From Heterostelium album PN500 (Eukaryota; Evosea; Eumycetozoa; Acytosteliales; Acytosteliaceae): a DNA stretch of 64,000 bases. Of the stretch, positions 32,376 to 52,700 are shown one piece after another. The stretch's first letter is position 1. Each line of letters begins with the position of its first letter. The stretch is taken from NCBI RefSeq assembly GCF_000004825.1, contig NW_008805089.1, positions 1,116,001 to 1,180,000 on the forward strand, written 5' to 3'. The notes under the pieces are model-generated. The model was not told the DNA's origin. It did not search any database and saw only the letters and a list, made by a program, of their open reading frames with translations. The translations under genes and the position numbers were made by a program.

Positions 32376-34576
32376 ATGAAATATATATTGTTACTTACTG
32401 CCCTTCTGGTGGTGGTGAGTTCAGCTGTAAAAATTCAAATCGAAAACAACGTTAGATTGGAGGATAACTCTGATTTCCAAATTGGTACCGGTATCTATGA
32501 TATTACTGGACCAGCCGCCGAAACAGGTATGATGGGATATGCCATGCCAGGTCAAGTCACCGGTGGTATCCATTTCCGTTTGAGATCACGTGCTTTTGTA
32601 TTTATAGATTCAAATGGCAACCGTGCCGTCTATGTCAGCACTGACAGTTGTATGATTTTCCAAGCCGTCAAGATTCAAGTCGTCCAATTGCTCGAGGAAC
32701 ACTTTGGACCAAATGTATATAGTCACGAAAATGTTTTGCTCTCTGGTATCCACACTCACAGTGGTCCAGGTGGTTACTCAATGTATGCCCTCTATGGTAT
32801 CACCACCCTCGGTTTCTACAAGGAAAGTTTCGATGCCATCTGTGAAGGTATCGTCCAATCGATTATCCGTGCTCACAACAACGTCAAGCCAGGTAAAATC
32901 ACTGCCGAACAAAGTAAATTATATGACTCAAATATCAAGTATGTATTAATAGTAGTTGGAAATCGATCAATTTACTTACCACCAACATGTAATAATTTAA
33001 TAGTCGTTCACCAACTGCTTATTTGAATAATCCAGCTGAGGAAAGAGCTTTGTATGAGAATGATGTCGATAAGAATATCACTTTGATTAAGATGGTCGAT
33101 ACCAATGGAAGTCCAATTGGTGCTTTGACATTCTTTGCTGTCCATTGTACATCGATGAACAACACCAATCATTTGATTAGTGGTGACAACAAGGGTTACG
33201 CTTCATACGCATGGGAGAAGTTGTTCAACAATAACTCATTGCCAGGTACTGGTCCATTCATTGCCGCTTTCGGTCAATCGAACGAAGGTGACGTCTCGCC
33301 AAACACACTCGGTGCATTCTGTCCAGATGGTTCAAGATGTTACGCTCCAGACTCGACATGCAACGGTAAGAACGAAGGTTGCAAGGGTATCGGTCCCGGA
33401 AAGGATGGTGACATGTTCGAATCCACTCAGATCATCGGTAACAACCAATTTCAAAAGGCTTTGGAGATGTGGGAGACCGCATCCATTCCAGTCCAAGGTT
33501 CCGTTCAATACCGTCATACCTGGTTGCCAATGACCAACATCACCGTCTACCCACCATTCACCCCAACTGCCGAGCCAGCTACCACCTGTCGTGCCGCCAT
33601 GGGTTACTCTTTCGCCGCCGGTACCACCGATGGTCCAGGTGCCTTTGACTTCACCCAAGGTGACAACAACACCAACGGTAACGTCTTCTGGAATTTCATC
33701 TCCAAGTTCATCGCCAAGCCAACCGAAGACCAAAAGCAATGTCAAGCACCAAAGCCAATTTTGATCGACGTCGGTCTCACCAAGCCACTCCCATGGACTC
33801 CAGATGTTGTCCCAATCCAAATCATCACCATCGGTAACATCGTTTTGTGTGCCGTTCCAGGTGAATTCACCACCATGTCTGGTCGTCGTTTGCGTAACAC
33901 TGTCTACGAGATTTTGAATGCTCAAGGTAGTGGTATCGAGAACCCAATCGTTTTGGTTGCTGGTCTCTCCAATACCTATTCCGGTTACATCGCCACCTAC
34001 GAAGAATACGAAGTTCAAAGATACGAAGCTGCCTCAACCATCTTTGGTCCACACACTTTGGGTGCCTACCAACAAGAGTTTGCCAAGCTCGCCACCTCCA
34101 TCGCCCAAAACAACCAAGTCGAACCAGGACCCTTCCCAAGAAACATGACCGGTCACACCTTCTTCTTCTTGCCACCAGTCGTCTATGACGAAGCCCCAGG
34201 TGGAAACTTTGGTGCCATCTACCAAGACGTCGGAACCACATACGCCGTCAACGACACTGTCACCGCTGTCTTTTACGGTGCTAACTTGAGAAACAACTTT
34301 ATGATTGAGAGCACCTTCTTGTCGGTCGATCTCGAAGTCTCACCAAACCAATGGGAAACCTTGTTCGTCGATGGTTCATGGGAGACCAAGATCTACTGGA
34401 AGATGCACGTTCCAGAAATCGCCCAATCACTCATCACCGTCGAATGGACCATTCCACCAACCATTTCCGCAGGTACCTACCGTATTACTCACCAAGGTTA
34501 TGCCAAGCCATCAATGTTCTCCGATAAGCTCGTTCCATACTCCGGTCAATCAAGTACATTCACTGTCACCGCCTAA
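32376..34576 (+). CDS. dcd2: Neutral ceramidase, secreted
   Basis: Two exons (32376-32938 and 33004-34576) give 711 residues. It hydrolyses ceramide to sphingosine and fatty acid. A signal peptide (MKYILLLTALLVVVSSA) precedes the catalytic domain. Family hallmarks are visible: GIYDITGPAAETGMMGYA near the N-terminus, the zinc-site segment SGIHTHSGPGGYS, NRSPTAYLNNPAEER at the exon junction, and GDVSPN, whose Ser286 matches the catalytic serine of neutral ceramidases. The C-terminal immunoglobulin-like domain ends around SSTFTVTA. Length agrees with bacterial and animal enzymes (about 650-780). Codon use in exon 2 is strongly biased to C-ending codons, suggesting high expression. The symbol follows the D. 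discoideum dcd2A/dcd2B pair; which of these is orthologous was not determined. Confidence 0.95.
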
Positions 34577-36958: not shown

Positions 36959-38349
36959 TCAAAATTGTTCAACAAATTTAAGTCCACCTAAAACCTTTCT
37001 TCCTTCATCTAACTTTGAAGCTGATCCACACTGATTCTTGAGTATATAGATGATATATTTGGAGACGGCCGACATGTAGGAAGCTGGATCCTCTTCACAA
37101 TCGATCTCGTCGATGAACTGGAACAAGAGTTTCTTGAACCATGGCTGAATGCTCTTATCGTTGTTGATATCCTTTCTGCAGTTGGTCGATGTCTTCTTCA
37201 TCGAGTGAATGGTGCTGATCACGAGGGTAGAGACGCTCTCTATCTTTTCAAAGAGCTCCTTGGCAAACGATTGGATCTGAATGTAACGTCTTGGCAATGG
37301 ACCCAAAGTACACAACTCACTGATGGTATCGTCGAGCTTGTTCTCCAAGATCAACAACCAGATGTCTTTCTCCTGATTCAAGTTGATCGAGCTACACTTG
37401 GAGAGATCGAAATACCATGCGCACTTCATCTTGAAGACACGTCCGTCGTCGAAACGCAAGATGTATCCTTCGATATCACGCATCTTTTGTACCTGTTCCA
37501 AGAGTTCGGCGGCAGTGCGGGCACCTCCACCAAACACCTTGTGCTGCTCGATGGCACCGGTCACTGGAACATTGAATTGCTTGGCCGACTCTACCATTTC
37601 ATCGTACAAAATATATTCACCGGTCTTGATCGAACGGATCGCTGTCAAACTCAACAAATCCTGAGCATAGTACAATACGATTCTCTGTGATTCAGAGCAC
37701 CATTCGTACATTGGAGTGTATCCCTTCTTCAACCACAACTCTGAGAACTCACCGTACTTGATGGTGTCGGCTTGCGAAGCGATATACTTATCGACCTTGG
37801 CCGAAAGATCAGTTGCTCCGGCCTTTGAACCCCATGTCACCTTATTTTCTTTCGACGAATAGATTGGAGCGATCAAACTACCATCCAACTTTTCCAAAAT
37901 AATATACTTCTCACCCTCCAAATTGATTTTATCCTAAAGTAAATGTGTTAGTTAGTTGTTATTACAATTTTGAAAATCATTTTATATAAATGTTAACTTA
38001 CTTGATGTGTTTCATCTAATTCGTTGATATTAAAGAACTTATGGAATTTTCTACAAACGAGAGCACCTGTCGATTGCTCAAAAATGATTCCACGACATTC
38101 ACGACGCACCTTGTACAAGAATGAACTACGAGCATCCTCGGCTGTCAATGGGTCTGGGAAGGATTGTCTAGTTGAGAAATCATAGTTGAAGCAAATCATA
38201 CCGTTTTTGTTGGTCTCACGGAATCCTGGTACACCCTTGATAGCATCTCTACAGTCTTGAATGGTAATATCATGTGGGAATCTAGTTTGATTTCTCTTTT
38301 CATAATCGATTCCATTGTTTTCTAAACTACCATAATTAATCTTTAACAT
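36959..38349 (-). CDS. T4 Rnl1-type RNA ligase
   Basis: Two exons (38349-38002 and 37933-36959) give 440 residues. This is an ATP-dependent RNA ligase of the covalent nucleotidyltransferase superfamily, which joins 3'-OH and 5'-phosphate RNA ends through a lysyl-AMP. Visible motifs are the upstream RRECRGIIFE (82-91) and FHKFFNINE (102-110), and motif I KLDGS with nucleophile Lys131. Also present are motif IIIa-like MYEWCSESQRIVLYY, the TGEYILYDE segment, motif IV EGYILRF and motif V VFKMKCAWY. After this comes a C-terminal helical region as in the phage Rnl1 family. No kinase or cyclic phosphodiesterase domain is fused, unlike fungal or plant tRNA ligases. Its substrates are unknown; RNA repair or tRNA/mRNA splicing are candidates. 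It is upstream of the glutaredoxin-like gene, on the same strand. Confidence 0.9.
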
Positions 38350-39494: not shown

Positions 39495-42400
39495 ATGGGA
39501 CCAAAGAAACAGTCGAATAAGAAGGGAACCAACACTACCGCTACAAAGGGATTCGTGATTGAGGAACCAGAGGAATTCACTCAATTGCAAAGAGAGAAGG
39601 AACAAAGAGCACAACAATTGGCTCAGCAAGAGCAAGATCGTAAGACAAAGAAGGAGAAAGAGAGATTGGCTGTCGAGGAGCAAAAGAAGCAGGAACTGGC
39701 TGCCCAAGAGGAGATGCAGAGATTGGCAGAGGAGCAAAAGCTAAAGGAACAACAAGAGAAGGAGAAGAAACAAGCCGATGAAGTCGCTGCCCTTGAGAAT
39801 CTAAAGTTGGAGGAGGAAGAGAAGAAGAAGAGCAACAATGCTTCTGACAGCAGCAACATTCCAATCATACAGGAACACGCTGTCGTTGTCAACTTTGTAG
39901 ATAACTTGCACGTAAGTGACTCTGCTGAAGTGACACCAGTCAACTTGATATCGCCAAAGCCAGTTGCTTCCCCAGCAACCGAATCAAAGCGTGCCAAAAC
40001 CAAGGAGCAACAACAACAACAGCAACAAAAGAAGAGAAAACACTCAACACAATTGACAACATTCGAGATTGTCGAAGCCAACTTTGACAATTTGTCATCG
40101 GATTGGACAAATGAGGATATCGTTCGTTTGAGATCGAAGCTTCAAAAGCCAGCACAAAAGAAGAAGACCAACAAGGGAACAAAGAAGACACCAACTTCAT
40201 CACCTGTCATCACATCGACTACACCAACCACCTCTGAAACCTCACCTTTGACCTCACCAACAACAACCACCACTACCACTACAACCACCACAACTGCTGC
40301 CGCACCAGTTGCTCCAACACCAACACCATCTCCAGTAACTGAAAAGGCAAAGTCAACAACCACCACCACCACCAAATCAAATGAAAAGAAACCATCCATT
40401 CCATCACCAAAGATCGATTCAAAGACAGCTACAAAGAAACAAGAGGAGACTAAACAATCACCAAAACAACAACAACAACAACAAAAGAAACCAGAGAAAC
40501 CAAAGGGATTCACAATTATTGAACCAACATTTGATGATGAACCAACTGTACAATCAAATAATGCTGCAACTACCACCACCACCGATCAAACATCAACCAC
40601 AGCAACCACTGTCACTTCACCAACTAACTCCAGCGCAGGAAAGAAAAAGAAATCACAAAAGAAACCAGTCGTCAAGAAGGAGGAGAGCGATATCGATTTG
40701 ATGTTAAAGGCAATTAACGATCCAAAGACAAAGAAGATTCCAAAGGAATTGTCACCAGTACAAACACAAAAGCAACCAACCCAAAAGCAAACAACTCCAC
40801 CAACCGCCAAATCAGAAAAGAAACAAGCTCAACCTCAGTCAGTTGCTGCTGCTGCTGCTCCACCAGCCCCCTCTGCTGATGAAATCAAAAAGAGAGAGGC
40901 TGCTGCCGCCGCCGCCGCCGCTCAAGCTGCTGAGCAAAAGAGATTGGCTGAGGAGGCTCAAAAGAAGGCCGCTGCTCAAGCCGCTGAGGAATCACAGAAA
41001 CAAGCTGCTGCTCAAGCCGCTGCCCAAGCTGCCGAGCAAAAGAGATTGGCTGAGGAGGCTCAAAAGAAGGCTGCTCAAGCTGCTGAGGAGTCACAGAAAC
41101 AAGCTGCTGCTCAAGCCGCTGCCCAAGCCGCTGAACAAAAGAGATTGGCTGAGGAGGCTCAAAAGAAGGCCGCTGCAGATCACGAGGCCGAGGAAGCAAG
41201 AAAGAAGGCTGCTGCCCAAGCTTCTGCTGCTGCCGCCGAGCAAGCTGCTGAGCAAAAGAGATTGGATGAAGAAGCTGAGAAGAAGAAGGCTCAACAAGAA
41301 GCTGAAGAAGCTGAGAAGAAGGCTGCCGCCGCCGCTGCTGCTGCTGCCGCCGAGCAAGTTGCTGAGCAAAAGAGATTGGCCGAGGAAGCTGAAAAGAAGG
41401 CCGCTGCTGCTGCCGCCGAGCAAGCTGCTGAGCAAAAGAGATTGGATGAAGAAGCTGAGAAGAAGAAGGCTCAACAAGAAGCTGAGGAGGCTCAAAAGAA
41501 GGCTGCCGCCGCCGCTGAGCAAGCTGCAGAACAAAAGAGATTGGAAGAGGAGGCTCAAAAGAAGGCTCAACAAGAAGCTGAGGAGGCTCAAAAGAAGGCT
41601 GCCGCCGCTGCCGAACAAGCTGCCGAGCAAAAGAGATTGGAAGAAGAAGCTGAGAAGAAGGCCGACGAAGAAGCAGCAGCAAAGCAAGCTGAGGAGCAAA
41701 AGAATGTTTTGGATCAAGTCACTGAGGAGCCACACCAAAAGCTTTCACATCCAACCTTGTCAAGACCAACCAAAAAAGGAAAATCATCTCTTAATCTTGC
41801 CACCGAGGTATGTGAAATTAACAGAAACAAAACTACTATTATAACAGACATAATTTCTAACATTGACTGATATTCACACATTTGTTTGTTAGGTACAAGA
41901 GGAAACTACCAAAGACACACAATCACCAACTTCAGAACCAATTGAATCAACCGAATCCAAACCAACAACCACCGAAACCGAAACTGCACCAGCAACCACC
42001 GAAACCGAAACCACTTCAACTCCAGCTGAAGAGACAGCTAAAAAACCAGTTGGAGGTATCAACATTTTTGGAGATGCCAAAATCAACCCAGTCAATGTTG
42101 TCCTTAAGAAGACACCATCCGCTGTCAACGTTGTACCAGCCGCTCCAAAAGAAGCATCTGTTACCGATTTCAGATCTGTTTTAAAGTCAAATTCTCAACA
42201 AAATTTGATGTCAACACCCACCAAAGCTCCAGCACCAGCTCCAGTCACACCAACTCCAGCTCCAGCACCAGCTCCAGCAGTCACCCCAACCCCAGCTGCC
42301 GCTCCAGTTGCCGCCAGTGCACCAGCTGGCCAATACTATTCCTACGAAGACCTCAAGGCCAAGAGAGTTCCAGATTTAGTACCAACCAAATTAGAAACCT

Positions 42401-43980: not shown

Positions 43981-44670
43981 TTATCTTTGTTGTAATTCAA
44001 TATCATTATGATTGTTATTATTGTTATTATTGTTATTATCATTGCTATTGTTATGATTAGGTTGTTGTCTTTGTTCAGGTCGAAAGAATCTTCTTGTTAG
44101 GTGAATTGATATGAGTGTTACAGCTATGCCGGCGACAGGTGATAGGATGTAGTAGAATACACCGATGATTGTATATTTGGTTTGTTTTTTCTCGAATAGA
44201 AGTACGGAATCCAAAGCATATCCCGAGAATGTTGTAAATCCACCGAGTAGTCCAACCAAAAGACCGTACCTCAGGTTGACATTGATTGCTTTCTTCTCGA
44301 CACCCACCACATGAAGGAATCCAATGATGGCACTACCAATGATATTGATGACAGCGGTACTCCAAAACGAATCCTTATGAAAACCACGAACAAACAGAGC
44401 ATTCGCCATGTATCTAATTAGAACACCGACTATTCCAAAGAGAATGATATAAGCAAATCTAACAAGACTTATATCATCTCTAATCGATGTCACTTTAACA
44501 CGATCATTATTGGTGTTATTGTTATTGTTATTGCCACGAGTTTCATCATTATTCTCTTCAACATCAAATTCATCTACAACTTCATCATCATCATCATCAT
44601 CATCACCATCATTATTATTGTTGTTGTTGTTGTGGTTATCATCATCATTATTACTCTCAATATCACTCAT
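43981..44670 (-). CDS. CrcB/Fluc fluoride channel, single domain
   Basis: An intronless 229-residue protein. The first 75 residues are Asn/Asp-rich low complexity, and the last 30 are Gln/Asn/His-rich. Between them is one CrcB domain with four membrane segments: AYIILFGIVGVLIRYMANAL, AVINIIGSAIIGFLHVVGV, RYGLLVGLLGGFTTFSGYAL and YYILSPVAGIAVTLISIHL. The family signatures are the Asn in VINIIGS and the GGFTTFSG loop (Phe-box and central Na+ site region). Such channels export fluoride. Eukaryotic FEX proteins usually contain two fused CrcB domains. This one has one, as in bacteria, so it should act as an antiparallel dimer. Bacterial origin by transfer is possible, but codon use and flanking low complexity look native. 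Confidence 0.9.
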   Translation of the reverse strand: MSDIESNNDDDNHNNNNNNNDGDDDDDDDEVVDEFDVEENNDETRGNNNNNNTNNDRVKVTSIRDDISLVRFAYIILFGIVGVLIRYMANALFVRGFHKDSFWSTAVINIIGSAIIGFLHVVGVEKKAINVNLRYGLLVGLLGGFTTFSGYALDSVLLFEKKQTKYTIIGVFYYILSPVAGIAVTLISIHLTRRFFRPEQRQQPNHNNSNDNNNNNNNNNHNDIELQQR

Positions 44671-45357: not shown

Positions 45358-46386
45358 ATGACACAAAAAATGGCAACATTGCAAACTAGTGAAAACAATA
45401 ATGAAGATTATCACGAAATGGAAGAGACAGGTATCAACGTTGCAGAGGACGAAGAGGACGTCGAGAAGCCAGACTTCCCAGTCGATTTGGCATTGGAGCA
45501 ACAAAAGAAGCGTTGGGTGTTGATTCGTGCTGTCGTCGGTGAACTCCTCTGTACATTCTTGTTTGTTTATATTGTGTGTGCCACCACTGTCAATTTCAAG
45601 ATGATTCCGGGTTCGTCGTCGGTGGTCGGTGGAGCTCTCTCCACTGCATTCTCAGCGGTCGCTCTCATCTATTCATTCGCTGATATTTCTGGTGCTCATT
45701 TCAACCCTGCCGTCACCTTTGCCACTTGTGTCACTCGTAGAACCTCGATCACAAAGGGTCTGCTTTACATCTTTGCACAAATGGTTGGATCAGTGTTTTC
45801 CGCTCTGATCATCTTGGCCACTTTCCCAGGAAACATCGATCCATCGCTTACCGGTGGCAGACCAGGTAACGCTGCCGCCGCCGCTGCAGTCGAACCAAGC
45901 AAATCCGCCAACATCGGTAACGTCTTCCTCACAGAGTTGATTCTCACTTTTATTTTGGTATACGTCATCTTTGCCGTTGCTTTCGATACCGTCGACGACA
46001 ACAAAAACGTCAAGGTCGTACGTGGTGGAAAGAAAGCCGGTAACAACCTCACCATCTATACTACCTCTGGTGCAACCAAGGCTGGTTTTGCCCCAATTGC
46101 CATTGGTTTCACACTTGGTTTCCTTTGTTTACTCGGTGGTTCCGTATCTGGTGGTGCTTTCAACCCAGCCAGAGTTTTCGGTCCAGGTAATTATTTGATG
46201 ATCATTCAAATCTTAATCTCAATCCACTGACACTAACATCAATATCATTTTATTTTATTTAAAATTATAGCTTTAGTTGGTAACAGATGGTCTAGACATT
46301 GGTTATATTGGATTGCTGATTTCTTAGGTGCTGGTATGGCCGGTTACACTCAGAAATTCTTTGCTGTCACCAAGTCCAAGATCTAA
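45358..46386 (+). CDS. Aquaporin (MIP family)
   Basis: Two exons (45358-46186 and 46271-46386) give 314 residues. A long acidic cytoplasmic N-terminus (about 60 residues) precedes six membrane segments and two half-helices. The two NPA boxes are intact: HFNPAV (Asn116) and AFNPARVFGP (Asn269). The last exon carries the WSRHWLYWIADFLGAGMAGY segment that makes the final helix. A charged insert (DTVDDNKNVKVVRGGKKAGN, about 220-240) enlarges one loop and may gate or regulate the pore. A second ATG at 45370 has the better dictyostelid context (AAAAAATGG), so the true start may be four codons later. Water-selective or glycerol-permeable behaviour cannot be decided by eye; an Arg follows the second NPA as usual. 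Confidence 0.92.
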
Positions 46387-49782: not shown

Positions 49783-52700
49783 TTAATTAGCTGTATGTCT
49801 TAATCTATTTGTCGATTGTGAAAGTGGATTGTCGTCATCTCCTTCATGGATTAATTTCGAAACATCCAATTTCATATGTGAAAGTTCCCTATATCTTTGT
49901 TCACATGTCTTTTCCAATAGATCTTTCTTTGTGATAATACCTTTTAATTTATTATATGAATTTACTAGTAAAAAGAGAATAGTAAAAAATGTTAGTTGGC
50001 TATTTTTCAATACAATAGTTATATTAATTAAACTTGTTACTTACCAACGGGCATATGACGAAGTCCCATTGTTCTAAATAGTTGGAAAGCTTCACTAACA
50101 GCAAACTCTTCGTTCACTGTTAGCACGGTCAAGTTCATAATGTTTGTGAAATCTACTTGAATCGAGTAATCTTCGGGATCGAATGAAAAATCAGAGAGTT
50201 GTGGTAGCTTCCATGCCAATTTGGTTGTGTAGTCGGTGTGTGAGTAGACTTGTTCGGTGTTTGGAATGTAGACATCGGAGAGACCTTCGAGAACCATCAA
50301 TAATTGAGTTCTCAAAATCAATCCTTTAACGCAACGATCGTCATGGTTATTGACCACTGGGAAACCATTGTGATTTGTATTCTTTAGCACCTCGAGAATA
50401 CGTCCGAGTGTATCTTTCTCCAAAAGGTAGACCGGTTTCTTTGCCATGATATGCTTGCACATGAGAATCTTCATTGCTTTGCTGGCGTGTGGCTCCAAAT
50501 AGGGGATATACTTCATCTCGATGAGAATGTCAAAGAGTGGATGGATCAATGCGTCGGCAACCCACTTGGCAACCATTACTGTCACCATCAGTGGCAAGAG
50601 ATATTGAAGTTCATTGGTTGTCTCAATGAGAATGACCGACAGTGAAATGGTGAGACGCGACACTCCAGCCATGAAAGCAGCTGCACCCATTAGTGCATAG
50701 GCACCGGGGTCGATTGTCGAGTATCCAAAGATGTGTTGGACGATAACACCGATCGCTCTACCATAGGAAGCACCGATGACAATCATCGGTACGAAAGTAC
50801 CCGAGGAAATACCGCAACCCGCTGTGTAGGCAGCAAACAAAAAGTAGAACAAAAAGAATAGAAGCAACGCTGGAATTCCGAAACGATTGGTGTTGTTCAA
50901 CTCTGGCGAGTTGATAGCCAGTAGATTCTGAATCGACTCTTCGTTACCGGCAAATATAATGGATGCCATCGGGTTGTACGAACCCTCTGGACAGTTGAAT
51001 GACTTGAGCAGGTCATTGAGTTGCTCCATTGTTTCGGAGCTTGAGCTGAGAGTTTCGTTACCGGCGTGTACAATGAGACTATCGATTGTATGACATTGAA
51101 ACATGAATGGCAAGAAGAATTGAAGAATAGTCGACACGGTAATGATAACGAATACCTCGAGAACACGTAGCGATTTGATTTTGTTTACGTACTTACGACG
51201 CATCGCAACCACCTTGACATTGATCAAGGTGAAGAGTGCACCTGTGAAACCACCGATGACACCAATCACCAAGAATGGAATCAACTCGAGCAAATTGTAG
51301 TTGTTTGCGGTGGAATTGGTTCCCATATCGAAAATCATGGTTGGATGCTGTGAGAGATGTGAATCCTTGAGGATCTTTGCGGTGAATGTAGCTACCAAGC
51401 AACAAAAGAAGGCACGCCAAGTGAGTGCTGTTGACCAGAAAGAACTGACTTCTTCGAGCGAGAACAATGCACCACCCAACGGAGCACTGAAAGCAGCGGC
51501 GACACCAGCACCCGCACCCATAGTAACGAAATCACGCTTGTCCTTATCGTTTCTAAAGGAACGCAAGAATGGAATCTTAAAACCAAACTCCTTTGATTGT
51601 GCCTGTGAGAAACCGTTACCAACGATCGCACCAATATGAATCATTGGACCTTCGGCACCGACTTGCAAACCTGAGGACACTGCAAAAATCATAGAGCTCA
51701 ACTTTGTCCATAGAGTCTTGAACTTGAGTACATGTGGAATCTTTGTACCATTCAAATAACCTTTAACCTCTGGAATACCGGATCCAGCTGCTGTAGGTTC
51801 GTAATAAACGGCCAACAATGAACTTATAATTGCAAGTACCGTATTACATGTGAAAAATGCAAGAAAAGCAAGCCAATAATCAAGTGTCAATACTGGAAAA
51901 AAAACATAAAATACAATGTTAATATATATATATATAACTATGATTCTTTTTGTTAATTAGGTTTAGTTTGCTGGTTACTTACAATATTTGACGAATTCGA
52001 ATTTATAAAATGTAAGATTGGATATTCCTATGTGACCGAGATAGGCAATGACACCGATGAAAATACCCATGACTGTAGAGATGATCCAACGTTGCCATTC
52101 ATTGCTGGAACCTAGTTTATTAAAGTTTTTGTACATCTCATTACGGTAGGCTTTGTTGTAGATGGTCATATAATCGAGACATTCATACTTTGAGATTTGT
52201 TTCTTGTCTTGAATCCAAATGGCACGCTCTTGATTCTCATGACGTTCGACACGCTTATGATGTTGATCACGTACCTTATCGACTGCTTTAATACCAACGC
52301 CTGCAACCGATTCAAATCCACCTATAATAGTATCTTCAATTTTCTTATTTGATTCTTTTACTTTTTCCTCCTATGAAATTTATCATTATGGTAAGTCGAC
52401 TTTTATATATAAAGTTAATGCTATTCAATCTATATATTTTTATATACTTACAATCTTTTGATTTGAATCTAAAATTGCTTGTTTAATAAGTTTGTTTGTT
52501 TTTGTAATTGTTTTGGTGAATTTAGTTTTGAATCCGTCACCCTCTTTGATATCGTCCTGTGAAGATAAGAGTGGTTTTGGTTGGTAGTTGGTTGGATCAC
52601 GGTTGATTGGCTCAAGAATGATTCCACTCTGAAAGGGACCGTCCTCATCGTCGTATTCATTGTTGTTGTTGTTGTTGTAGTTGTTGTTGTTAAGACGGCT

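Follow-up and report, generated by a model that had tools for sequence, protein, structure and literature searches.

A T4 Rnl1-type RNA ligase gene in the dictyostelid Heterostelium album and its putative role in RNA repair

The ligase gene and its active site

T4 RNA ligase 1 (RnlA), the ligase of phage T4, has a preference for tRNA-Lys and a tail-fibre role. A kinase-ligase pair of this phage repairs cut tRNA (PMC3400036, excerpt). RTCB is stated to occur in Dictyostelium (PMC13247085, excerpt). Here we analysed a 64,000-nucleotide stretch of contig C27 (hereafter, the window) from the genome of the dictyostelid Heterostelium album PN500 (32.9 Mb, 39 contigs), which carries a gene that almost certainly belongs to the T4 Rnl1-type RNA ligase family. 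On balance we consider it probable, taking the two parts jointly, that this nuclear, intron-bearing gene codes for a predicted ATP-dependent 5'-3' RNA ligase of that family and that the enzyme acts in RNA repair.

The gene has two exons on the minus strand (window 38349..36959), and its spliced product is 440 aa long. All covalent nucleotidyltransferase motifs (I, III, IV and V) and the catalytic Lys are present in the protein; the four motifs quoted in an earlier reading of the sequence alone (the original prediction) start at residues 84, 131, 271 and 282. A profile match and a predicted model made for an ortholog both include the Rnl1-type helical C-terminal domain. The original prediction had described a stand-alone Rnl1-type ligase with no fused kinase or cyclic phosphodiesterase (CPD) end-healing domains, and our Pfam scan agrees on both points, with PF09511 as the only family found and the T4 catalytic residues in place. 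The window protein did not match PF20819 at E<=1, a family which we take to be that of the T4 Rnl1 C-terminus and which is listed for several relatives, nor did it match PF09414 (Rnl2 / Naegleria-type nick-sealing ligases). The UniRef name for proteins of this kind is T4 RNA ligase 1-like N-terminal domain protein.

Residue conservation was counted in an alignment of 29 eukaryotic and 71 other rows, with T4 entered twice. The equivalents of T4 R54, K75, K99, D101, G102 and E159, and those of D272 and D273, are conserved in all 29 eukaryotic rows. Those of E227, G228, K240 and Y246 are found in 28 of the 28 rows with a letter there, and that of K242 in 27 of 28 (the gapped row, P0025, is a gene model without the middle of the protein). 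K119 has its equivalent in 25/29 rows, the other four having Met. The window protein carries the T4 residue at every one of these aligned active-site positions, and these T4 residues matter for catalysis. A search with C-terminal residues 292-440 alone returned only the protein's own database entry, and it is uninformative on the spread of this domain because it missed even the close Acytostelium ortholog.

The best database match of the window protein was PPL_05697 from the same strain (95% over 70% of the query). Relative to the open frame, PPL_05697 has 12 additional N-terminal residues, and 68 residues are swapped for one Cys between KMKCA and TIHSM. The missing stretch was matched in 13/13 dictyostelid homologs compared (in P0025 in part only). 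The database model is probably in error over residues 289-356, because the missing stretch carries the conserved Tyr290 and Asp317-Asp318.

The enzyme family itself is known; descriptions of this gene or of a dictyostelid Rnl1 were not found in the literature searched. No dictyostelid Rnl1 is named in the available portions of PMC13247085, PMC11494293, PMC2904730, PMC6514570, PMC3400036 and PMC7824862. No paper was found that combined 'RNA ligase', 'Dictyostelium' and 'Rnl1', in a search that otherwise covered titles and the starts of abstracts, with several result lists partial.

Distribution and descent

The original prediction implied that such a gene is an oddity in an amoeba, which does not fit its distribution: six dictyostelid genera, other Amoebozoa and Heterolobosea also have Rnl1. 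Among the matches listed (the best 120 of 608 in the first search and 63 of 63 in the second, so that the eukaryote count is partial) were Heterostelium, Acytostelium, Polysphondylium, Dictyostelium (four species), Tieghemostelium and Cavenderia. Dictyostelium discoideum has at least one copy among them. The other named eukaryotes among them were Arcella, Acanthamoeba, Naegleria, Willaertia, Acrasis and the diatom Extubocellulus. Unnamed EukProt entries also matched, and the transcript prefix Phypoly pointed to Physarum. A few of the models have extra parts, namely P0130 (DENR_N at the C-terminus), P0003 (a Ras-type GTPase at the N-terminus) and the Willaertia model P0134 (723 aa, no further Pfam family), all of which may be gene-model fusions. 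An alphaproteobacterial protein from a metagenome-assembled genome (MAG), P0166, has an AbiEii nucleotidyltransferase and an Rnl1-type ligase domain in a single chain.

Scanning the H. album genome with PF09511 gave four exon-sized matches, two for the window gene and two for a gene on contig C4. The C4 paralog is intact: it splices to 450 aa and keeps KVDGS. Its intron lies two residues past the ET of NINELxET in phase 0, the same as in the window gene, and was chosen among 11 splice choices tried as the one fitting the homologs. The second paralogs group together at 100/100 in the careful tree described below, and these sequences indicate that the ligase is duplicated within the dictyostelids.

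Two trees were built with phage and protist ligases. The fungal Trl1 ligases, also named for comparison in the original prediction, were left out. The quick tree had 99 rows, made up of 29 eukaryotic and 12 bacterial sequences, 28 metagenome proteins chosen by hand among the search matches, and 30 viral ones. Of the viral rows, 5 were named phages and 25 remained from a set of 63 proteins thinned at 60% identity and 330 aa. For the careful tree of 82 rows, 17 were removed (long branches, near copies, the GTPase-fused model and the gapped P0025). In the careful tree, 39 eukaryote-type rows (25 named or EukProt and 14 metagenomic) fell on one side of a branch with support 99/90. Heterolobosea were outermost, followed by the Acanthamoeba group, the Arcella group (90/70) and Physarum beside the dictyostelids (98/88), and the dictyostelid rows came together at 100/100. 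The nesting of dictyostelids, Physarum, Arcella and Acanthamoeba agrees with the organismal order. An approximately unbiased (AU) test rejected the dictyostelids joined to 43 phage, bacterial and like rows (p 0.0135); these rows were picked after tree inspection, and the phage question itself preceded it.

The ligase thus appears, from these alignments, to be an old gene common to many amoebae and not a recent phage acquisition. The term phage-type in the original prediction remains apt as a family name and fails for a recent phage gene, given the 99/90 grouping and the AU test. A recent phage origin of the gene, or contamination, would fit the observation that the matches listed, besides the named amoebae, are mostly metagenome and phage-like proteins. 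We rejected it as highly improbable on account of the intron position common to the window gene and its paralog, the tree order and the AU result.

Several observations weigh against simple descent. In the quick tree the branching order among the eukaryotic groups is undecided, and the phage and bacterial rows come together at 89 except for T4 and two Aquificota rows, which lie outside. The careful tree was rooted on T4 by choice. Three Bacteroidota rows adjoin the eukaryotes on a long branch in the careful tree (96/67), but the quick tree places them among other bacteria, and the diatom sits with a bacterium in both trees. This diatom ligase (Extubocellulus, P0157) pairs with a Robiginitomaculum MAG, away from the other eukaryotes, as a separate transfer or contamination. 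The descent found here would make Rnl1 long-standing in some eukaryotes, beyond phages.

Candidate partners and the probable role of the ligase

To describe the gene context of phage and bacterial relatives, 80 loci were kept from viral contigs (379 pattern stretches, 332 encoding relatives), and prokaryote genomes supplied 12; the 1528 matching phage records were all below 60% identity. Of 63 viral loci whose ligases are not identical (near copies were retained), 39 have a kinase-type gene within 1 kb of the ligase and 10 have a phosphatase-type gene there (this split count replaces an initial 42/63 that pooled kinase and phosphatase seeds, per Pfam). All kinase and phosphatase genes found in these loci share the strand of the ligase. 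Where at least 1.5 kb was available on both sides, a kinase or phosphatase gene was within 1 kb in 33 of 46 loci, and the same was true of 6/9 named phage loci (chosen from the list, plus T4). In Rhizobium phage RHph_I1_18, genes for a CCA enzyme, Thg1, the ligase and a kinase lie within ~4 kb, interspersed with a small gene. Thg1, CCA and Macro genes (one seed each) were found near ligases in 1/101 loci, the seed's own, so the general linkage is restricted to the kinase and, less often, the phosphatase. Caulobacter phage Cr30 has two annotated RNA ligase genes less than 3 kb apart (L117 1-321 and 2992-4188).

The original prediction had proposed looking in the amoebal genome for RtcB and for separate polynucleotide kinase genes, and both are present. 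There is one RtcB gene (470-aa open frame), and end-healing kinase and phosphatase are represented by two PNKP genes. Both of these carry a phosphatase as well as a kinase domain, and their identity is 57% over 398 columns. The genome also has two CLP1-type domains, two Thg1 loci, four matches to nuclease domain PF06479 (IRE1/RNase L type), and two RlaP genes above the Pfam cut-off (open frames of 558 and 619 aa), a family also matched in 3/14 control genomes. Two RlaP stretches were seen on contig C17, and on C38 a second, degenerate repeat was seen by eye. RlaP takes its name from its work with RNA ligases, which it mirrors in jumbo phages (PMC7824862, excerpt), and bacterial-type Thg1 is said to occur, among eukaryotes, in slime moulds and Naegleria (PMC2904730, excerpt). 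A 270-aa AAA_33 frame on C35 was considered as a stand-alone partner kinase and dropped, BLASTP against one phage kinase giving no match.

The original prediction rightly left the substrate undecided, and we infer both substrate and partners. Judged from gene content and family, the most likely role, which we regard as probable together with the gene's identity, is to mend breaks in tRNA or in other stable RNAs alongside RtcB. Lys131 would be adenylylated by ATP and hand the AMP on to an RNA end bearing a 5'-phosphate; the ligase would then seal this activated end to a 3'-OH, the RNA ends being healed in trans by separate proteins. Repair is preferred over splicing because RtcB is present, the Trl1 fusion is absent and the phage relatives are kinase-linked; RtcB is the more likely enzyme of tRNA splicing.

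A yeast-like pathway, in which the ligase would join tRNA exons or IRE1-cut mRNA after kinase and cyclic phosphodiesterase steps, with Tpt1 removing the 2'-phosphate, has in its favour the Tpt1 and PF06479 matches and the CLP1-type domains. Species that lack this ligase can have Tpt1 and IRE1 as well. With RtcB present and Archease matched in the genome, and a protein of Rnl1 type whose likeness to Trl1 appears confined to the nucleotidyltransferase, we hold such a pathway to be unlikely. The Trl1 kinase and CPD domains (PF08303, PF08302) were not found in the genome either, but the control genomes likewise gave no match. A role in making RNA circles, or in processing mitochondrial or other special RNAs as for an archaeal ligase, seems quite unlikely. 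Given a 19-mer in vitro, T4 Rnl1 mainly produced circles (PMC11494293, excerpt), and knock-out of the archaeal ligase reduces circular C/D box sRNA (PMC9014305, excerpt); this analysis, which did not look at circular RNA or organelle targeting, found no support for it.

The repair role faces several opposing points. None of the partner genes lies inside the window, the nearest on C27 being hundreds of kb off, and the candidate partners are unlinked to the ligase gene. Archease and Tpt1 are known only as unassembled exon-sized matches, two for each, those of Archease being weaker than those of Tpt1 and having stops inside. Every partner has other known jobs: PNKP may serve DNA repair, CLP1 mRNA 3'-end formation and Thg1-like proteins 5' mitochondrial tRNA editing. 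The amoebal RlaP domains as phmmer queries gave 0 hits among the open reading frames of the 101 loci used for phage context. The kinase-adjacency counts were made without a random-gene control and with near-identical ligases still included, and a kinase or phosphatase gene was nearby in only 1/12 bacterial loci.

As a tentative and rather doubtful extension of the repair role, Amoebozoa (perhaps also Heterolobosea) may retain an entire phage-like RNA-repair pathway, inherited vertically, with its genes scattered over the genome and working beside RtcB. In such a pathway PNKP would heal the ends, RlaP and Thg1-like proteins would restore lost nucleotides and the two Rnl1 paralogs would seal. 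If present, it could shield amoebae that feed on bacteria against ribotoxins made by their prey. The bacterial-type Thg1 said to occur in slime moulds and Naegleria points the same way. Genetic work is easy in dictyostelids, and since they combine a true Rnl1 and its paralog with candidate partners for healing ends and restoring nucleotides, knock-outs could separate repair, splicing and circularisation. The division of labour between sealing of 5'-phosphate and 3'-OH ends and sealing by RtcB is unsettled even for man (RLIG1; PMC13247085, excerpt).

Window features and comparison with known ligases

The features are collected in Table 1. ARAGORN found no tRNA in the window, and Rfam gave no match at the gathering score. 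We take the CrcB family to be a fluoride channel; its gene lies close to those of the MIP and CLC channels.

Table 1 Coordinates of the ligase gene, its sites, the RlaP genes and neighbouring features (window positions unless a contig is given)
Feature	Position	Strand	Basis or remark
Exon 1	38002..38349	-	residues 1-116, N-terminal part; ECRGIIFE at residue 84
Intron, 68 nt, GT..AG, phase 0, 19% GC	37934..38001	-	position corresponds to C4 paralog intron
Exon 2	36959..37933	-	residues 117-440 and stop
Lys131 codon, motif I nucleophile (T4 Lys99)	37889..37891	-	alignment; placed from exon coordinates
Glu193 codon (T4 Glu159)	37703..37705	-	alignment; placed from exon coordinates
Glu271 codon, motif IV (T4 Glu227)	37469..37471	-	alignment; placed from exon coordinates
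Lys284-Met285-Lys286, motif V (T4 Lys240-Ile241-Lys242)	37424..37432	-	alignment; placed from exon coordinates
Rnl1-type C-terminal domain, ~residues 290-440, including Asp317-Asp318 (T4 Asp272-Asp273)	36962..37414	-	profile match, ortholog model, alignment
Residues 289-356, missing from PPL_05697	37214..37417	-	comparison with dictyostelid homologs
RlaP gene (L145)	C38:491272-491748		Pfam scan of genome
RlaP gene (L146)	C17:653621-655405		Pfam scan of genome
Neutral ceramidase	32376-34576	+	two open frames, intron between them probable
791-aa Ala/Glu/Gln/Lys-rich protein	39495-41870	+	tandem repeats (periods up to 114 bp); no Pfam at 1e-5
321-aa frame	40879-41844	+	overlaps the 791-aa repeat protein in another frame
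CrcB family gene	43981-44670	-	
MIP channel	45358-46230	+	
CLC chloride channel	50037-51692	-	

Compared with T4 RNA ligase 1, the amoebal enzyme shares both domains, the catalytic residues and the DD pair that opens the C-domain, and differs in that identity in the structure alignment (ortholog model) is 22-23% and the gene is nuclear with an intron; a linked kinase gene was not observed, no search aimed at one having been made. Grouping it with fungal ligases, as the original prediction did, proved loose: the nucleotidyltransferase part matches Trl1 weakly (E 2.4e-7 to 0.014, ligase part only). Alignments of the ortholog model with the 6 Trl1 entries listed stop at residue 288-289 in five and at 318 in the sixth. 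Membership in Trl1 was rejected, as the window protein is without its fused kinase and CPD domains. Human RLIG1 (C12orf29) is likewise a 5'-3' RNA ligase in an RtcB-bearing cell (PMC11494293, PMC13247085, excerpts), but the RLIG1 entries 9c6l and 9c6m match only at E 1.2, across 23 profile positions. A viral RLIG1 homolog of solved structure is described as being without the T4 RNA-binding domain (PMC11494293, excerpt). Phage Rnl1 repair cassettes such as that of RHph_I1_18 share the ligase family, and their kinase and Thg1 genes also have counterparts in the amoebal genome; these genes are clustered in the phage, whereas in the amoeba they lie on separate contigs.
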